The notes beneath the pieces are model-generated. The model was not told the origin of the DNA and did no database searches. It was given only the letters and a program-made list of their open reading frames with translations. A stretch of DNA of 64,000 bases from an uncultured Modestobacter sp. (GTDB lineage: Bacteria; Actinomycetota; Actinomycetes; Mycobacteriales; Geodermatophilaceae), in assembly GCF_947486615.1 (NCBI RefSeq), contig NZ_CANKUD010000003.1, positions 372,001 through 436,000 on the forward strand, given 5' to 3'. Position numbers and translations under genes: made by a program. Below, one piece after another: positions 4,280-10,034 of this stretch. How positions within the stretch are numbered: the stretch's first letter is position 1; every line of letters begins with the position of its first letter.

Positions 4280-5329
4280 TCAGCGCGGGTAGACGGCGAC
4301 CTCGGAGGCCTTGACCGAGGCCCAGACCTGCGCGCCGGGGGCCAGCCCGAGCTCGGCGAAGGAGGTGGCGGTGACGTCGGCGGTCAGCGCCACCTCCCCG
4401 GCCAGGTCGCAGCGCACCACCGGACCGTGCGGGGTCGCCGTCACCAGCCTCAGCGGCCACACGTTGCGCGGGCTGCCCTCGGGGCGGGACAGGTACAGCG
4501 CCACCGACTCGGGCCGCACGGCGACGAACACCGGCCCGTGCACCTGCGCGGCCACCGCGACCGCGCTACCCCCGTCGAGGGCGACCGTCGTCCCGGTGCC
4601 GGTGCCGGCCAGCAGCACCAGCCCGACCAGCCGGGCCACGTAGTCGGTGCGCGGCCGCCGGGCGACCTCGGCCGGCGTGCCGGCCTGCACCACCCGGCCG
4701 TCCTCGACCACCAGCACCCGGTCGGCCAGCGCCATCGCGTCGACCGGGTCGTGGGTGACCAGCACCGCACTGCCGGCGTAGTCGCCCAGGTGCCGGTGCA
4801 GCTCGGCCCGCACGGTCAGCCGGGTACGGGCGTCCAGCGCGGACAGCGGCTCGTCCAGCAGCAGCAGCCGCGGGTCGCCGACCAGCGCCCGGGCCAGCGC
4901 GGCGCGCTGCGCCTGGCCCCCGGAGAGCTGACCGGGGCGGCGGTCGCCCAGCCCGGCCAGGCCCACCCGGTCCAGCCAGCCCTCGGCGGTGGCCCGCGCA
5001 TCGGCCCGCCGCGCCCCGCGGGTGCGCAGCCCGAAGGCGACGTTGTCGGCGACCGAGAGGTGCGGGAACAGCAGGTGGTCCTGGAACACCATGCCCAGCG
5101 ACCGCTGGTGGGCGGGTACGTGCCGGCCGGCGTCGTCCCACACCCGGTCGCCGTCGACGACCACCCGCCCGCCGTCGGGCGCCAGCAGCCCGGCGAGCAC
5201 CCGCAGGAGCGTGGACTTGCCCGCGCCGTTCGGGCCGAGGACGGCGAGCACCTCCCCGTCGGCGACGGCCAGCTCCACGTCCAGCGTGAGCGCCCCGCGG
5301 CGGACGACGACGTGCGCGGCCAGGCTCAT
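4280..5329 (-). CDS. modC: Molybdate ABC transporter ATP-binding protein ModC
   Basis: 349 aa. The ATPase shows Walker A 'GPNGAGKS', Q-loop 'GMVFQDHLLFPHLSV', signature 'LSGGQAQR', Walker B 'LLLLDEP' and H-loop 'VLVTHDP'. The C-terminal 110 residues form a TOBE/MOP-like domain that can bind oxyanion. It energises molybdate import with ModB and ModA. The track ORF begins too far upstream; ATG 5329 overlaps the modB stop by 4 bp. It is the last gene of a translationally coupled run (HTH-TOBE, modA, modB, modC). Confidence 0.94.
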   Translation of the reverse strand: MSLAAHVVVRRGALTLDVELAVADGEVLAVLGPNGAGKSTLLRVLAGLLAPDGGRVVVDGDRVWDDAGRHVPAHQRSLGMVFQDHLLFPHLSVADNVAFGLRTRGARRADARATAEGWLDRVGLAGLGDRRPGQLSGGQAQRAALARALVGDPRLLLLDEPLSALDARTRLTVRAELHRHLGDYAGSAVLVTHDPVDAMALADRVLVVEDGRVVQAGTPAEVARRPRTDYVARLVGLVLLAGTGTGTTVALDGGSAVAVAAQVHGPVFVAVRPESVALYLSRPEGSPRNVWPLRLVTATPHGPVVRCDLAGEVALTADVTATSFAELGLAPGAQVWASVKASEVAVYPR

Positions 5330-6162
5330 CCGACCGCCCCCCGCCCCAGCCAGCGGCCGCGGAGCAGCAGCAGGGTGGCCAGCGAGACCGCCAGCAGCAC
5401 CAGGCTGAGCACGATCGCCGCCTCCGGGTCGCGCTGCAGGGTCAGGTACACCGCCAGCGGCATCGTCTGCGTCGTCCCCGGGAAGTTGCCGGCGAAGGTG
5501 ATCGTGGCGCCGAACTCGCCCAGCGCCCGCGCCCAGCAGAGCACCGCGCCGGCCGCCACCCCGGGCGCGACCAGCGGCAGGGTGACCCGGCGGAACGTCG
5601 TCCACCGGTCGGCGCCGAGGGTGGCCGCGGCGTCCTCGAACCGGGCGTCGGCGGCGCGCAGCGCGCCCTCCACGCTGATCACCAGGAACGGCATCGCCAC
5701 GAACGTCTCGGCCACCACGACCGCGGCGGTGGTGAACGGCAGCGAGAAGCCGGTGGCCTCGAACAGCCACCGGCCGACGATCCCCTGCCGGCCCAGCACC
5801 AGGAACAGCGCCACGCCCCCGACGACCGGCGGCAGCACCAGCGGGACGGTGACCAGCGCCCGCAGCAGCGACCGGCCGCGCACCTGCGACCGGGCCAGCA
5901 CCCAGGCCAGCGGGACGCCGAGCAGCAGCGACAGCAGCGTGGCCAGGGTCGCCGAGACCAGCGAGAGCCGCAGCGCCTCACCGACGCCGGGCCGGGCCAG
6001 CTGCGCGCCGATCTCCGGCCACGGCGCCCGCACCACCAGCCCGACCAGCGGCAGCACCAGGAACCCGACGGCCAGCAGCGCCGGCACCAGCAGCGGCACC
6101 GGCACCCCGCCGTCCCTGCTCGTCCGCCGAGATGGCCATCTCGGCGGCGCGGGGTGGGTCAC
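5326..6162 (-). CDS. modB: Molybdate ABC transporter permease ModB
   Basis: 278 aa, GTG start. About six hydrophobic helices are visible, from 'LLVPALLAVGFLVLPLVGLVV' to 'AIVLSLVLLAVSLATLLLL'. The cytoplasmic coupling motif 'EDAAATLGADRWTTFRRVTLP' is typical of ModB/CysT permeases, as is 'ALGEFGATITFAGN'. It forms the membrane channel for molybdate. It overlaps modA and modC by 4 bp on either side, implying tight coupling. Confidence 0.94.
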   Translation of the reverse strand: MTHPAPPRWPSRRTSRDGGVPVPLLVPALLAVGFLVLPLVGLVVRAPWPEIGAQLARPGVGEALRLSLVSATLATLLSLLLGVPLAWVLARSQVRGRSLLRALVTVPLVLPPVVGGVALFLVLGRQGIVGRWLFEATGFSLPFTTAAVVVAETFVAMPFLVISVEGALRAADARFEDAAATLGADRWTTFRRVTLPLVAPGVAAGAVLCWARALGEFGATITFAGNFPGTTQTMPLAVYLTLQRDPEAAIVLSLVLLAVSLATLLLLRGRWLGRGAVG

Positions 6163-6944
6163 GGGGTGCGGAAGCCGGCGTCGGTGAGGGCCTGCTGGCC
6201 CTCCGCCAACCGGACCAGCGCCACGAACGCCTCCGCGGCCGCCGGGTTCGGCGCGGCCGCGAGCACGCAGAGCGGGTACTCGTTGGGCTCCTGCGCGGCC
6301 TCGGGGAACGGGATGCCCTCGACGTCGTCACCGGCTGCCCGCACGTCGGTGGCGTAGACCAGCGCGGCGTCGACCTCGCCCAACTGCACCTTGGTCAGCG
6401 CCGCCCGGACGTCCTGCTCCTGGGTGTCGGGCTGCGCGGTGATGCCCACGTCGGCGAAGACGGCCTCCGCCGCCGCGCCGCACGGGACGTCGGGTGCACA
6501 GACGGCGAGGGCCAGGTCCGGGTCGGCGAAGTCGGTCAGCCCCGTGACGCCGCCGGGGTTGCCGGCCGGGACGGCGATCTCCAGCGCGTTGCCGGTGAAC
6601 ACCGCCGGCTCGTCCGCGGCCAGGTCGGCGACGACGTCCATCTGCGCGGTGTCGGCCGAGGCGAAGACGTCGGCCGGGGCGCCCTGGCCGATCTGGGTGG
6701 CCAGCGTCGAGCTGCCGGCGAAGGTGAACTGAACGTCCAGGCCGGGGTGCTCGGCCTCGAGCTGGTCGCCCAGGCCGGTGAAGACGTCGGTCAGCGAGGC
6801 GGCTGCGAAGACGGTCAGCGTGCCGCCCACCTCGCCGTCGGCCGTCGCGGTCGAGTCGGTGCCACAGCCGGCCAGCACCAGCAGCGAGGCCCCGGCGAGC
6901 AGCCGCCCGCGCCCGGCACGATGACCTGGCGGGTGCCCGCTCAC
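6159..6944 (-). CDS. modA: Molybdate-binding lipoprotein ModA
   Basis: 261 aa, GTG start. A signal peptide ends in a lipobox ('LLVLAGCGTD'), so the protein should be anchored to the outer face of the membrane. 'LTVFAAASLTDVFTGLGDQLE' carries the serines that contact the oxyanion in ModA; 'FAGSSTLATQIGQGAPADVFASAD' and 'VDAALVYATDVRAAGD' are also conserved. It captures molybdate or tungstate and delivers it to ModBC. It overlaps the upstream HTH-TOBE gene by 4 bp (GTGA). Confidence 0.94.
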   Translation of the reverse strand: MSGHPPGHRAGRGRLLAGASLLVLAGCGTDSTATADGEVGGTLTVFAAASLTDVFTGLGDQLEAEHPGLDVQFTFAGSSTLATQIGQGAPADVFASADTAQMDVVADLAADEPAVFTGNALEIAVPAGNPGGVTGLTDFADPDLALAVCAPDVPCGAAAEAVFADVGITAQPDTQEQDVRAALTKVQLGEVDAALVYATDVRAAGDDVEGIPFPEAAQEPNEYPLCVLAAAPNPAAAEAFVALVRLAEGQQALTDAGFRTP

Positions 6945-7333
6945 GGCACGTCCACGCTGACCTGGGTGGCCTTGACCGTCGCGACGGCCCGGACGCCGAC
7001 CTCCAGGCCCAGCTCGTCGGCGGCCTCCCGCGACATCAGCGAGACGAGCCGGAACGGCCCGGCCTGGATCTCGACCTGCGCCATCACGGTGTCCCGGACG
7101 ACGCGGGTGACGATGCCGGCCAGCCGGTTGCGGGCCGAGGAGGAGCGGGTGGCGCCCGGCTGCGGCGCGTCGTGCAACTCGGCGGCGACCCGGGCCAGGG
7201 CCGCGCCGTCGACCTGCGCCGGGCCGCCGTCGCGGGTGGCGGGCAGCCGCTCGCTGTCGATCCAGCGGCGGACGGTGTCGTCGCTGACGCCGAGCAGGGC
7301 GGCGGCCTCGGCGATGCGGTAGCTGGCGGGCAC
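6941..7333 (-). CDS. HTH-TOBE molybdate-responsive regulator
   Basis: 130 aa. Residues 4-45 ('YRIAEAAALLGVSDDTVRRWIDSERLP') form a MerR/excisionase-type helix-turn-helix; residues 67-128 ('RNRLAGIVTRVVRDTVMAQVEIQ') form a single TOBE/Mop oxyanion-binding domain. The layout differs from enterobacterial ModE but suggests the same job: sense molybdate and control modABC. It is the first gene of the run and overlaps modA. TAGAGT (7345-7340) lies 6 bp before GTG 7333, so the mRNA is probably leaderless. Two near-identical repeats just upstream (7348-7398) are candidate self-operators. Confidence 0.85.
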   Translation of the reverse strand: MPASYRIAEAAALLGVSDDTVRRWIDSERLPATRDGGPAQVDGAALARVAAELHDAPQPGATRSSSARNRLAGIVTRVVRDTVMAQVEIQAGPFRLVSLMSREAADELGLEVGVRAVATVKATQVSVDVP

Positions 7334-7345: not shown

Positions 7346-7398
7346 GATCCGCAGCTGCGGCGGATCAACGCAGGAGAGTCCGCAGCTGCGGAGGATCA
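7346..7398. promoter_or_regulatory. Tandem palindromic operator of the mod operon
   Basis: Two 20-bp direct repeats, TCCGCAGCTGCGGMGGATCA, start at 7348 and 7379 and differ at one base. Each holds the 12-bp palindrome CCGCAGCTGCGG. The start-to-start distance is 31 bp, close to three helical turns, so bound dimers would face the same side. The first copy also forms GATCCGC-N7-GCGGATC. They occupy the -35 region of the leftward mod promoter. Confidence 0.7.
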
Positions 7399-8178
7399 GG
7401 CGAGAGCGCGGCGGCGGTGCAGCACCGGGGCCCGACCCCGCACCGGGCGGGCCCCGCGCGGAGCGGGCCGCAGCGAGGCCAGCGACCAGATGCTGACCCG
7501 GACCAGGGCCTCCCGGATGATCCGGCCGCTCATCTTGCTCTGCCCGAACTCGCGGTCGGCGAAGACGATCGGCACCTCGACGATGCGCGCCCCGCCGGTC
7601 CACAGCTGCCGGGCCACGTCGATCTGGAAGCAGTACCCCTGGGACTGGAGCGCCGAGAGGTCCACCGACTCCAGCGCGCGGCGGCGGAAGACGCGGAAGC
7701 CCCCGGTGGCGTCACCCAGCGGCAGGCCGAGGGCGACCTGCACGTAGCGGTTGGCCCCGCGGCTGAGCAGCTCCCGTCGCCGCGACCAGTCGCGCACGCT
7801 GCCGCCGGGCACCCAGCGGGAGCCCAGCACGGCGTCGGCGGCGCCCAGCCGGTCCAGCAGCCGCGGCAGGTCCTGCGGCCGGTGCGATCCGTCGGCGTCC
7901 ATCTGGGCGATGACGTCGAAGCCCTGGCCGAGGGCCCAGCGGAAGCCCTCGACGTAGGCGGGTCCGAGCCCGGCCTTGCCGGGGCGGTGCAGCACGTGCA
8001 CCCGGGCGTCGTCGGCGGCCATCGCGTCGGCGAGCTCACCGGTGCCGTCGGGGCTGGCGTCGTCGATCACCAGCACGTGCACCGCGGGCGCGGCACGCAG
8101 CACCGCGGCCACCGTCCGGGGCAGGCTGTCCCGCTCCTGGTAGGTCGGGATGCAGACGCACACGCTGGCTGAGGTCAC
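7396..8178 (-). CDS. Polyprenol-phosphate mannose synthase (GT2)
   Basis: 260 aa from GTG 8178. The GT2 core shows 'CIPTYQERDSL', 'VLVIDDASPDGTGELAD', 'QMDADGSHRPQDLPRLL' (DxD-like metal site), 'GSRWVPGGSV' and 'FADREFGQSKMS', the pattern of dolichol/polyprenol-phosphate mannosyltransferases. It moves mannose from GDP-mannose to polyprenyl phosphate on the cytoplasmic face. No transmembrane extension is present, so this is the soluble Ppm type. The track starts at 8310; GTG 8178 puts the catalytic motif at the N-terminus as usual, but ATG 8235 is possible. It is divergent from the lipoprotein-pmt pair. Confidence 0.85.
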   Translation of the reverse strand: MTSASVCVCIPTYQERDSLPRTVAAVLRAAPAVHVLVIDDASPDGTGELADAMAADDARVHVLHRPGKAGLGPAYVEGFRWALGQGFDVIAQMDADGSHRPQDLPRLLDRLGAADAVLGSRWVPGGSVRDWSRRRELLSRGANRYVQVALGLPLGDATGGFRVFRRRALESVDLSALQSQGYCFQIDVARQLWTGGARIVEVPIVFADREFGQSKMSGRIIREALVRVSIWSLASLRPAPRGARPVRGRAPVLHRRRALA

Positions 8179-8324
8179 CTCCGGACACTCCCCCGCGGCC
8201 GCGGGCGCCACACCGGCCGCCCCGATCCCACGCATGACAAAAACGTCATCGAGCCCGTCGTGTAGGCGACAGGAGGACGGACATGCCTGAGGGGACCGCC
8301 AACCCCGCACGTCAGGAGCACCCC

Positions 8325-8606
8325 ATGAACAAGCTCGTCCGCGGCGTCTCTGCCGCCACCTTCTCCGGCCTGCTCATCTTCGGCACCGCTGCCTGCAGCG
8401 GCGAGAACGAGGACGGCGACGGCACGGTGGAGGTCACCGAGACCGAGTCGCTCACCGAGACCGAGGAGCTCGACACCGAGGTCACCGAGACCCTGGAGCC
8501 GACCGAGACCGAGACCGACACCGAGGAAGAGGTCGTCGAGACCGAGACCGAGGTCGACACCGAGACGGAGACCGAGTTCGACGTCGACGTCACCGAGGAC
8601 AACTGA
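8325..8606 (+). CDS. Small Thr/Glu-rich acidic lipoprotein
   Basis: 93 aa, family not recognised. A signal peptide with lipobox ('FSGLLIFGTAACSG') should anchor it outside the membrane. The mature part is nearly all Thr, Glu, Asp and Val in TE/TET repeats ('ETETDTEEEVVETETEVDTE'), probably extended and strongly negative. ATG 8325 has an AGGAG site; in-frame ATG 8283, also with a good site, would give an unusually long n-region. It ends 3 bp before the O-mannosyltransferase gene and is divergent from the mannose-donor synthase, so its many threonines make it a candidate O-mannosylation substrate. That role is inference. Confidence 0.75.
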   Translation: MNKLVRGVSAATFSGLLIFGTAACSGENEDGDGTVEVTETESLTETEELDTEVTETLEPTETETDTEEEVVETETEVDTETETEFDVDVTEDN

Positions 8607-8609
8607 CCG

Positions 8610-10034
8610 GTGGTCCTCGCCGCGCCAGCGGCTGACCGGTCTCCCACGGGCGGCGCCTCCGGGCGCCGCCCGTCGTGGGTCTGGGCCCTGCCCCTGTCCC
8701 TCTTCCTGCTGGCCACCGGCCTGCGGCTGTGGGCGCTGGGCGACCCGACCCGGCTGTACTTCGACGAGAGCTACTACGCCCGGGACGCCTTGGACTACGT
8801 CACCCGTGGGGTCGAGGAGGAACGCCCGGCCCACCCGCCGCTGGGCAAGTGGGTCATCGCGCTGGGCATCCAGGCCTTCGGGTACACCCCGTTCGGCTGG
8901 CGCATCGGCGTCGCACTGGCCGGGTCGCTGTCGGTCCTGCTGACCTACCTCGCCGGACGGCGGCTGCTCCGGCACCCCGCCGCGGCGACGCTCGCCGCCC
9001 TGCTGGTGGCGCTGGACGGGCTGGCGCTGACCAGCAGCCGGATCGCCATGCTGGACGCCGTCCTCGGGTTGTTCGTCGTCCTGGCGGTCTGGCTGGTGCT
9101 CCTCGACCGGGACGCCCGCCGCGCCGACCGCCGGCCCGGCGAGCCGCTGCGCAGCTCGCTGCTCGGTTCGCGGTACCGCTGGCTGGCCGGGCTCGCGCTC
9201 GGCCTGGCCGTGGCGACCAAGTGGTCCGGGCTGCTCGCCGTCACCGCCGCCGGGCTGCTGGTGCTCGGCACCGAGCTGGCCGGCCGGCACGAAGGGCTCG
9301 GCCGGACCGTGCGCCGCGGCCTGGCGGTGACCGCCGGCGGCGTGCTGAGCTTCCTGCTCCTCCCGGCCGTGGTGTACCTGGCCAGCTACACCGGCTGGTT
9401 CGTCAACTACGCCGACAGCCACGCCGGCGCCCGCGCCTGCGGAGCGGGGGAGTGCAGCGCGTCGGTCGGCGAGCGACTGGACACCTGGGTCGACACCCAG
9501 GTCGACCTGGTCGCCTTCCACCAGCGCCTCGAGGCCACCCACCCCTACCGGTCGGACCCGCTGGGCTGGCCCTGGCTGGAGCGCCCGGTGCTGGCCTACC
9601 TGGAGAAGTGCACCACCGCCGAGGACGTCGAGGAGGGCTGCGCCGTCCCGGAGGGGACGCAGGCCCGGATCGTGCTGCTCGGCAGCCCCGCACTGTGGTG
9701 GCCGGCCCTGCTGGCCGCGCCGGTGCTGCTGTGGCGGTCGGTCGTCCGGCGGGACGGCGTGGCGGCCAGCATCGGTGTCACGTTCCTCGCGCTGTGGCTG
9801 CCGTGGCTCGCCGCGGGCAAGCCCGGCTACTTCTTCTACCTGGTGCCGGCGGTGCCCTTCCTCGCGCTGGGGCTGGTGCGCGCCGTGCAGGTCAGCCCCC
9901 GGCCCCGCCTGCTCGGCGGCGTGCTGCTGGTGCTCGCCGTCGCCGCCTGCGTGTTCTTCGCCCCCATCTGGTTCGGCCTCCCGGTGACCTCCGACCACCT
10001 CGACCTGCGGTACTGGCTGCCCTCCTGGCGGTGA
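8610..10034 (+). CDS. pmt: Polyprenol-phosphate-mannose:protein O-mannosyltransferase (GT39)
   Basis: 474 aa, GTG start 3 bp after the lipoprotein stop, so almost certainly co-transcribed. 'LYFDESYYARDALDYV' carries the catalytic Asp-Glu pair of the first extracytoplasmic loop, and 'HPPLGKWVIALG' is the next PMT hallmark. About nine to eleven membrane helices follow ('VLLTYLAGRRLL', 'LVVLAVWLVLL', 'LGLAVATKWSGLLAV'). It uses polyprenyl-phosphate mannose to glycosylate Ser/Thr of proteins as they are exported. The donor synthase is the neighbouring divergent gene. Confidence 0.93.
   Translation: MVLAAPAADRSPTGGASGRRPSWVWALPLSLFLLATGLRLWALGDPTRLYFDESYYARDALDYVTRGVEEERPAHPPLGKWVIALGIQAFGYTPFGWRIGVALAGSLSVLLTYLAGRRLLRHPAAATLAALLVALDGLALTSSRIAMLDAVLGLFVVLAVWLVLLDRDARRADRRPGEPLRSSLLGSRYRWLAGLALGLAVATKWSGLLAVTAAGLLVLGTELAGRHEGLGRTVRRGLAVTAGGVLSFLLLPAVVYLASYTGWFVNYADSHAGARACGAGECSASVGERLDTWVDTQVDLVAFHQRLEATHPYRSDPLGWPWLERPVLAYLEKCTTAEDVEEGCAVPEGTQARIVLLGSPALWWPALLAAPVLLWRSVVRRDGVAASIGVTFLALWLPWLAAGKPGYFFYLVPAVPFLALGLVRAVQVSPRPRLLGGVLLVLAVAACVFFAPIWFGLPVTSDHLDLRYWLPSWR

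Follow-up and report, generated by a model that had tools for sequence, protein, structure and literature searches.

The window, a stretch of 64,000 nucleotides from an uncultured Modestobacter sp., carries three neighbouring genes between positions 7396 and 10034: a GT2 polyprenol-phosphate-mannose synthase (GT2b) and, divergent from it, a small lipoprotein gene followed by a GT39 protein O-mannosyltransferase (PMT2). All members of this trio were found where a first-pass annotation of the DNA had placed them, and Pfam domains bore out the identities it had given to both enzymes. The reported 3 bp gap was also confirmed, with the lipoprotein stop codon at 8604-8606 and the PMT2 GTG at 8610. 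The GT2 start that had been set at 8310 is that of the longest open reading frame only; the conserved domain starts near 8178. The features of the locus are as follows:

7396..8178, minus strand: GT2b, second polyprenol-phosphate-mannose synthase (Ppm1/DPM1-type GT2; PF00535), probable start codon near 8178
8179..8324, no strand: divergent intergenic region, presumed to hold the promoter(s)
8325..8606, plus strand: Thr/Glu lipoprotein, 93 aa, proposed dedicated acceptor (signal peptide, lipobox, orthologues)
8610..10034, plus strand: PMT2, accessory GT39 protein O-mannosyltransferase, 474 aa, GTG start (PF02366 and PF16192, predicted fold)
8763..8768, plus strand: PMT2 catalytic Asp52-Glu53 (MtPMT D74-E75), invariant in a 33-member alignment
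9054..9056, plus strand: PMT2 Asp149 (MtPMT D176), within SRIAMLD, in a nearly invariant alignment column
9819..9830, plus strand: PMT2 Lys404-x-x-Tyr407, in place of Rx2Y (MtPMT R441/Y444) in alignments

A CGTGTAG...CGGACATG stretch 5' of the lipoprotein gene is conserved in most holders of the module (8179-8324 and the equivalent regions) and is possibly a promoter or regulator site. Positions 4280-7333 of the window hold modA, modB and modC-like genes together with a gene for a small HTH and TOBE protein. This protein, in which an HTH of the excisionase type is joined to a molybdate-binding domain, is probably the molybdate regulator of the mod operon.

The lipoprotein reading frame opens with an ATG at 8325 and encodes a signal peptide and lipobox (residues 1-24, with the Cys24 codon at 8394-8396) and a mature part of 70 aa, which contains 18 Thr, 23 Glu, 8 Asp, 2 Ser and 1 Pro, is free of Lys, Arg and His, and has a net charge of -31. 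Thr and Glu make up 59% of the mature chain, so that the description of the protein as Thr/Glu-rich stands, although calling it almost wholly composed of these residues was a slight overstatement. A type II signal peptide with a lipobox Cys is present: a PS51257-type pattern fits 17/17 lipoproteins, while 15/16 family members pass a stricter Gram-positive pattern, which the window copy fails at -3 (Thr) only. The protein matches no Pfam family, and its chain is of low complexity and probably disordered. Across the lipoproteins, the mature length ranges from 61 to 77 aa, the number of Thr from 14 to 20, and the charge from -24 to -35. Twelve of the 18 Thr columns are invariant across 16 orthologues, in which a change from Thr to Ser was never seen, the substitutes being Val, Glu, Asp and a few others. 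The mature part has a dN/dS of ~0.8, which is uninformative and does not demonstrate selection on the Thr residues because of the extreme codon bias (codon use is nearly fixed to ACC and GAG). A chance low-complexity reading frame is ruled out by the 16 orthologues, in which the signal peptide, the ribosome site and the position of the stop are all conserved.

GT2b matches PF00535 (E=2e-34). With this GT2 domain, a dolichol-phosphate-mannose synthase (5mlz, E=1e-29) as its closest solved relative, and the nucleotide/metal and DAD motifs of that enzyme retained, it belongs to the Ppm1/DPM1 type. The same genome encodes a second Ppm1, 56% identical to GT2b, directly behind lnt (LNT_N and CN_hydrolase domains), and a second Pmt, about 36% identical to PMT2, next to rsmI on another contig; a canonical Pmt match was likewise present in the PMT2 holders of a first survey (n=10), with the possible exception of one fragmentary case. 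These copies elsewhere in the genome rule out GT2b and PMT2 as the housekeeping Ppm1/Pmt set, and the two are a set additional to the canonical lnt-ppm1 and rsmI-linked pmt genes. The contrast that had been drawn with mycobacteria, in which ppm1 and pmt lie far apart, is beside the point since it compares them with an extra set. GT2b is of the same enzyme kind as Ppm1 of the ppm operon (lnt/ppm2-ppm1) of Corynebacterium and mycobacteria, on which lipoprotein glycosylation in C. glutamicum depends (PMC3460810), but it has no adjoining lnt and falls in its own clade of 10 members, separate from the lnt-linked Ppm1 that this genome encodes elsewhere.

Pairing and insertion site in the Geodermatophilaceae

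A profile built from ten lipoproteins was searched in 115 Geodermatophilaceae genomes and matched 16 of them, once each, and PMT2 (threshold E <= 1e-80) matched exactly the same 16. The lipoprotein gene lies directly 5' of PMT2 in 16/16 holders, and neither PMT2 without the lipoprotein nor the lipoprotein without PMT2 was found among the 115 genomes. Counting one distant genome described below, the lipoprotein-pmt pair is thus conserved well beyond the strain in which it was first noticed. Named holders are found in Modestobacter (M. lapidis and several VKM strains) and Blastococcus (B. xanthinilyticus, B. capsensis and one VKM strain). On a RecQ tree the module need have been gained or lost only four times, and well supported branches force just two of these changes; given so few independent events, the co-occurrence must not be counted as 16 independent observations, and shared descent explains much of it.

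Nine genomes of the Modestobacter group, as well as B. xanthinilyticus, have GT2b next to the pair, while six Blastococcus genomes keep the lipoprotein and PMT2 in its absence, which rules GT2b out as an obligate part of the module. In a complete, one-contig Blastococcus genome with lipoprotein and PMT2, no Ppm1 match was found at E <= 1e-30. The earlier view of donor synthase, acceptor and enzyme as one compact unit consequently holds for the lipoprotein and PMT2, which are the tight unit, and not for GT2b, which is a frequent companion.

The module is flanked on one side by the HTH/TOBE gene of the molybdate operon and on the other by recQ. In module-free genomes (eight of the same genus and one of another genus) these two genes are 66-137 bp apart, and this spacing, seen in most of the module-free genomes checked, is the empty site; one further module-free genome (G003) has about 1 kb between them. 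In M. lapidis (L173, L174), GT2b, lipoprotein and PMT2 are found together on another contig, and the usual site has a PadR regulator between the TOBE gene and recQ. The set therefore behaves as one unit.

In 6/7 Blastococcus holders a GT87 (PimE-type) GT-C gene faces PMT2, between PMT2 and recQ:

L178, 9111-10565: GT87 gene
L193, 4072-5628: GT87 gene
L194, 7858-9105: GT87 gene
L195, 7679-9235: GT87 gene, assigned by sequence likeness only
L197, 4164-5465: GT87 gene
L198, 7556-9022: GT87 gene

The other five were assigned by Pfam. GT87/PimE-type enzymes use polyprenol-phosphate-mannose, and the protein encoded here is a candidate mannose-chain extender.

Fold, residues and origin of PMT2

PMT2 contains PF02366 (E=2e-25, 90 bits, cut-off 22.7) and PF16192 (PMT_4TMC; E=1e-15, 58 bits, cut-off 32.4). 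The top seven PDB matches of its AlphaFold model (pLDDT 90.4, pTM 0.91) are chains of Pmt4, Pmt1 and Pmt2 with TM scores of 0.73-0.75, compared to 0.53-0.55 for ArnT. With the NCBIfam equivalog Pmt model NF058602 it scores 191 bits, below the 800-bit cut-off, which says little because a Mycolicibacterium Pmt fails as well (520). Across 33 aligned Pmts, D52, H75 and D149 vary little or not at all. Among the functional residues of MtPMT, D74 is essential and D176 needed, and R441K retains most to almost full activity, whereas Ala or Leu at this position abolishes it (PMC12331936). PMT2 keeps D74, D176 and Y444 and has Lys for R441, as does every PMT2 inspected, while alignments place Arg there in canonical and Nitriliruptorales-type Pmts. 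With respect to the WW-like motif in EL4, P359 and W362 are kept and W355 is replaced by Tyr; the Y371 position is Ala or Val with a Tyr adjoining. A basic acceptor groove was sought in the acceptor-side loops EL1 and EL4 and was not found: their net charges of -2 to -4 and -2 to -6, respectively, are not more basic than in canonical Pmt, and as both loops are acidic overall, nothing in their charge points to a preference for a polyacid.

In a quick tree of 93 Pmts, which has long branches and for which the program flags long-branch joining, twelve PMT2s form one clade (support 100) that is sister to Nitriliruptorales and another deep Actinomycetota Pmt (support 100) and distant from the rsmI-linked Pmt of the family itself. 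Sequence identities agree with the tree, with 41-50% to Nitriliruptorales-type Pmts and 36-39% to the family's own. The tree rules out an origin by duplication of the latter, and judged by tree and identities PMT2 is a xenolog that was acquired horizontally. It shares neither the own-family cluster nor the rsmI neighbour of the canonical orthologue group, forming a separate clade and lying between the mod operon and recQ. Its Nitriliruptorales-type sisters, which share the paired Cys in EL4, differ in that nearly all adjoin rsmI, with no Thr/Glu lipoprotein alongside.

A sample of 397 Actinomycetota genomes was also searched. One genome from another class (G510) encodes a PMT2-like enzyme (43%) with a Thr/Glu lipoprotein directly upstream (L211 1223-1492), and this lipoprotein was the sole strong match outside the family (E=2.4e-15, with a profile built without it). 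A PMT2-type Pmt had no match in 295 other sampled genomes of that class. The distant enzyme may be weak or inactive, as it has Asn at the Arg441 position and Phe at the Tyr444 position. Because the lipoprotein is low-complexity, joint travel of the pair and a similar pairing that arose twice are inseparable here, and the pair reflects either. The same genome has a second, weaker profile match (G510:C1:1062145-1062366, L224) in a lipoprotein that is larger, also acidic, and contains Pro/Thr stretches. Weak matches in four other genomes of the phylum (E=3e-5 to 1e-3) revealed no clear Thr/Glu lipoprotein and were treated as chance.

A candidate module with a proposed acceptor of its own

Given what the genes encode, how strictly the lipoprotein and PMT2 go together, the foreign descent of PMT2, the site that is empty in module-free genomes, and a Pmt fold that retains its catalytic residues, the locus is probably best explained as an accessory, horizontally acquired O-mannosylation module in which the lipoprotein would be the dedicated acceptor of PMT2. 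For the wider proposal, of a GT39 Pmt lineage that travels with a polyacidic Thr-repeat lipoprotein as its private substrate and makes a mannosylated brush beside the housekeeping Pmt, the chances appear evenly balanced. GT2b would make polyprenol-phosphate-mannose on the cytoplasmic side, and in genomes without GT2b the donor would presumably come from the housekeeping Ppm1. The lipoprotein would be exported as an unfolded chain and then lipidated at Cys24, and its ~18 Thr would be O-mannosylated outside the membrane by PMT2, expressed from what I infer to be the same transcript. If the lipoprotein is indeed the main acceptor, the cell surface would carry a short polyanionic brush, mannosylated, anchored in the membrane, hydrated and acidic. 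The Geodermatophilaceae live on stone and in dry soil, which is suggestive only with regard to a brush role.

In Streptomyces and Corynebacterium, Pmts commonly act on lipoproteins (PMC6593405, PMC3460810), and substrate preference varies among actinobacterial Pmts (PMC11727336). Against an acceptor role, the lipoprotein repeat has one Pro, unlike the Pro/Ala-rich Pmt sites of M. tuberculosis (PMC12331936), and the acceptor loops of PMT2 do not look tuned for a polyacid. PMT2 could instead be a second Pmt of broad specificity, with the lipoprotein as one substrate among many or as an unrelated operon passenger. Known actinobacterial Pmts do modify many substrates (PMC6593405), neighbouring genes are often conserved at such divergence, as the adjoining mod genes are too, and the nearest relatives of PMT2 are rsmI-linked and without lipoprotein, so this enzyme type was not born with a dedicated acceptor. 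This reading is nevertheless rather unlikely, given that lipoprotein and PMT2 are never apart in the family although GT2b came or went, that the distant pair demands repeated or joint acquisition, and that the extreme Thr content suits an acceptor.

The one-to-one pairing and fixed gene order would equally suit a lipoprotein that is the partner of PMT2 and not its acceptor, for instance an anchored acidic cofactor, a chaperone, or a spacer that docks acceptors or stabilises the enzyme, and loops that are not basic and a repeat devoid of proline context (PMC12331936) point the same way. No such gene adjoins the housekeeping Pmt of these cells, and a chain that is low-complexity and probably disordered speaks against a partner as well. 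Pmts are not known to require a partner of this kind, and this role seems distinctly unlikely. That PMT2 transfers sugar to a lipid or glycan, like its GT-C relatives ArnT and PimE, is highly improbable: the best fold matches are all Pmts, scoring well above ArnT, the Pmt-specific PMT_4TMC domain is present and the Pmt catalytic set is kept, even though GT-C folds are versatile, PMT2 has weak NCBIfam matches to ArnT and Agl23, and the PimE-type gene faces it in most Blastococcus holders.

Relation to known systems and meaning

PMT2 shares with canonical Pmt (M. tuberculosis Rv1002c, C. glutamicum Cg_1014, S. coelicolor Pmt) the PMT and PMT_4TMC domains, the fold, the DE and HPP motifs, the second Asp, an aromatic residue at Tyr444, and polyprenol-phosphate-mannose as the expected donor. 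It differs in clade, in the Lys for Arg441 and the loss of the Tyr371 position, in being an extra copy and not the sole Pmt, and in having the lipoprotein gene as a neighbour instead of rsmI. Bacterial glycosyltransferases encoded beside one dedicated acceptor are known from the pilin O-oligosaccharyltransferase TfpO next to pilA, from HMW1C next to HMW1, and from the Gtf enzymes of serine-rich repeat adhesins. These offer a functional analogy, with acceptor and modifying enzyme encoded together, but they belong to other enzyme families, with other donors and acceptors, and none is a GT39 Pmt. In the open-access literature searched, no paper was found that describes a bacterium with a second Pmt or an acceptor linked to a Pmt, nor a relevant one on mannosyltransferases of Modestobacter or Blastococcus.

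No consensus Pmt site is known, and the acceptors chosen vary between Pmt orthologues (PMC12331936, PMC11727336). A clean system for asking what determines the choice of Ser and Thr by bacterial Pmt is offered by bacteria that have two Pmts, one of them tied through gene order to a repetitive candidate acceptor of 70 residues, almost free of Ser and without Lys or Arg, with the other as a control enzyme in the same cell. PMT2 is an acquired second Pmt that some soil and stone bacteria (Modestobacter, Blastococcus) carry besides their ordinary one, and if the proposed acceptor role is true, it would be, as far as the open-access literature searched goes, the first Pmt genetically linked to an acceptor of its own.
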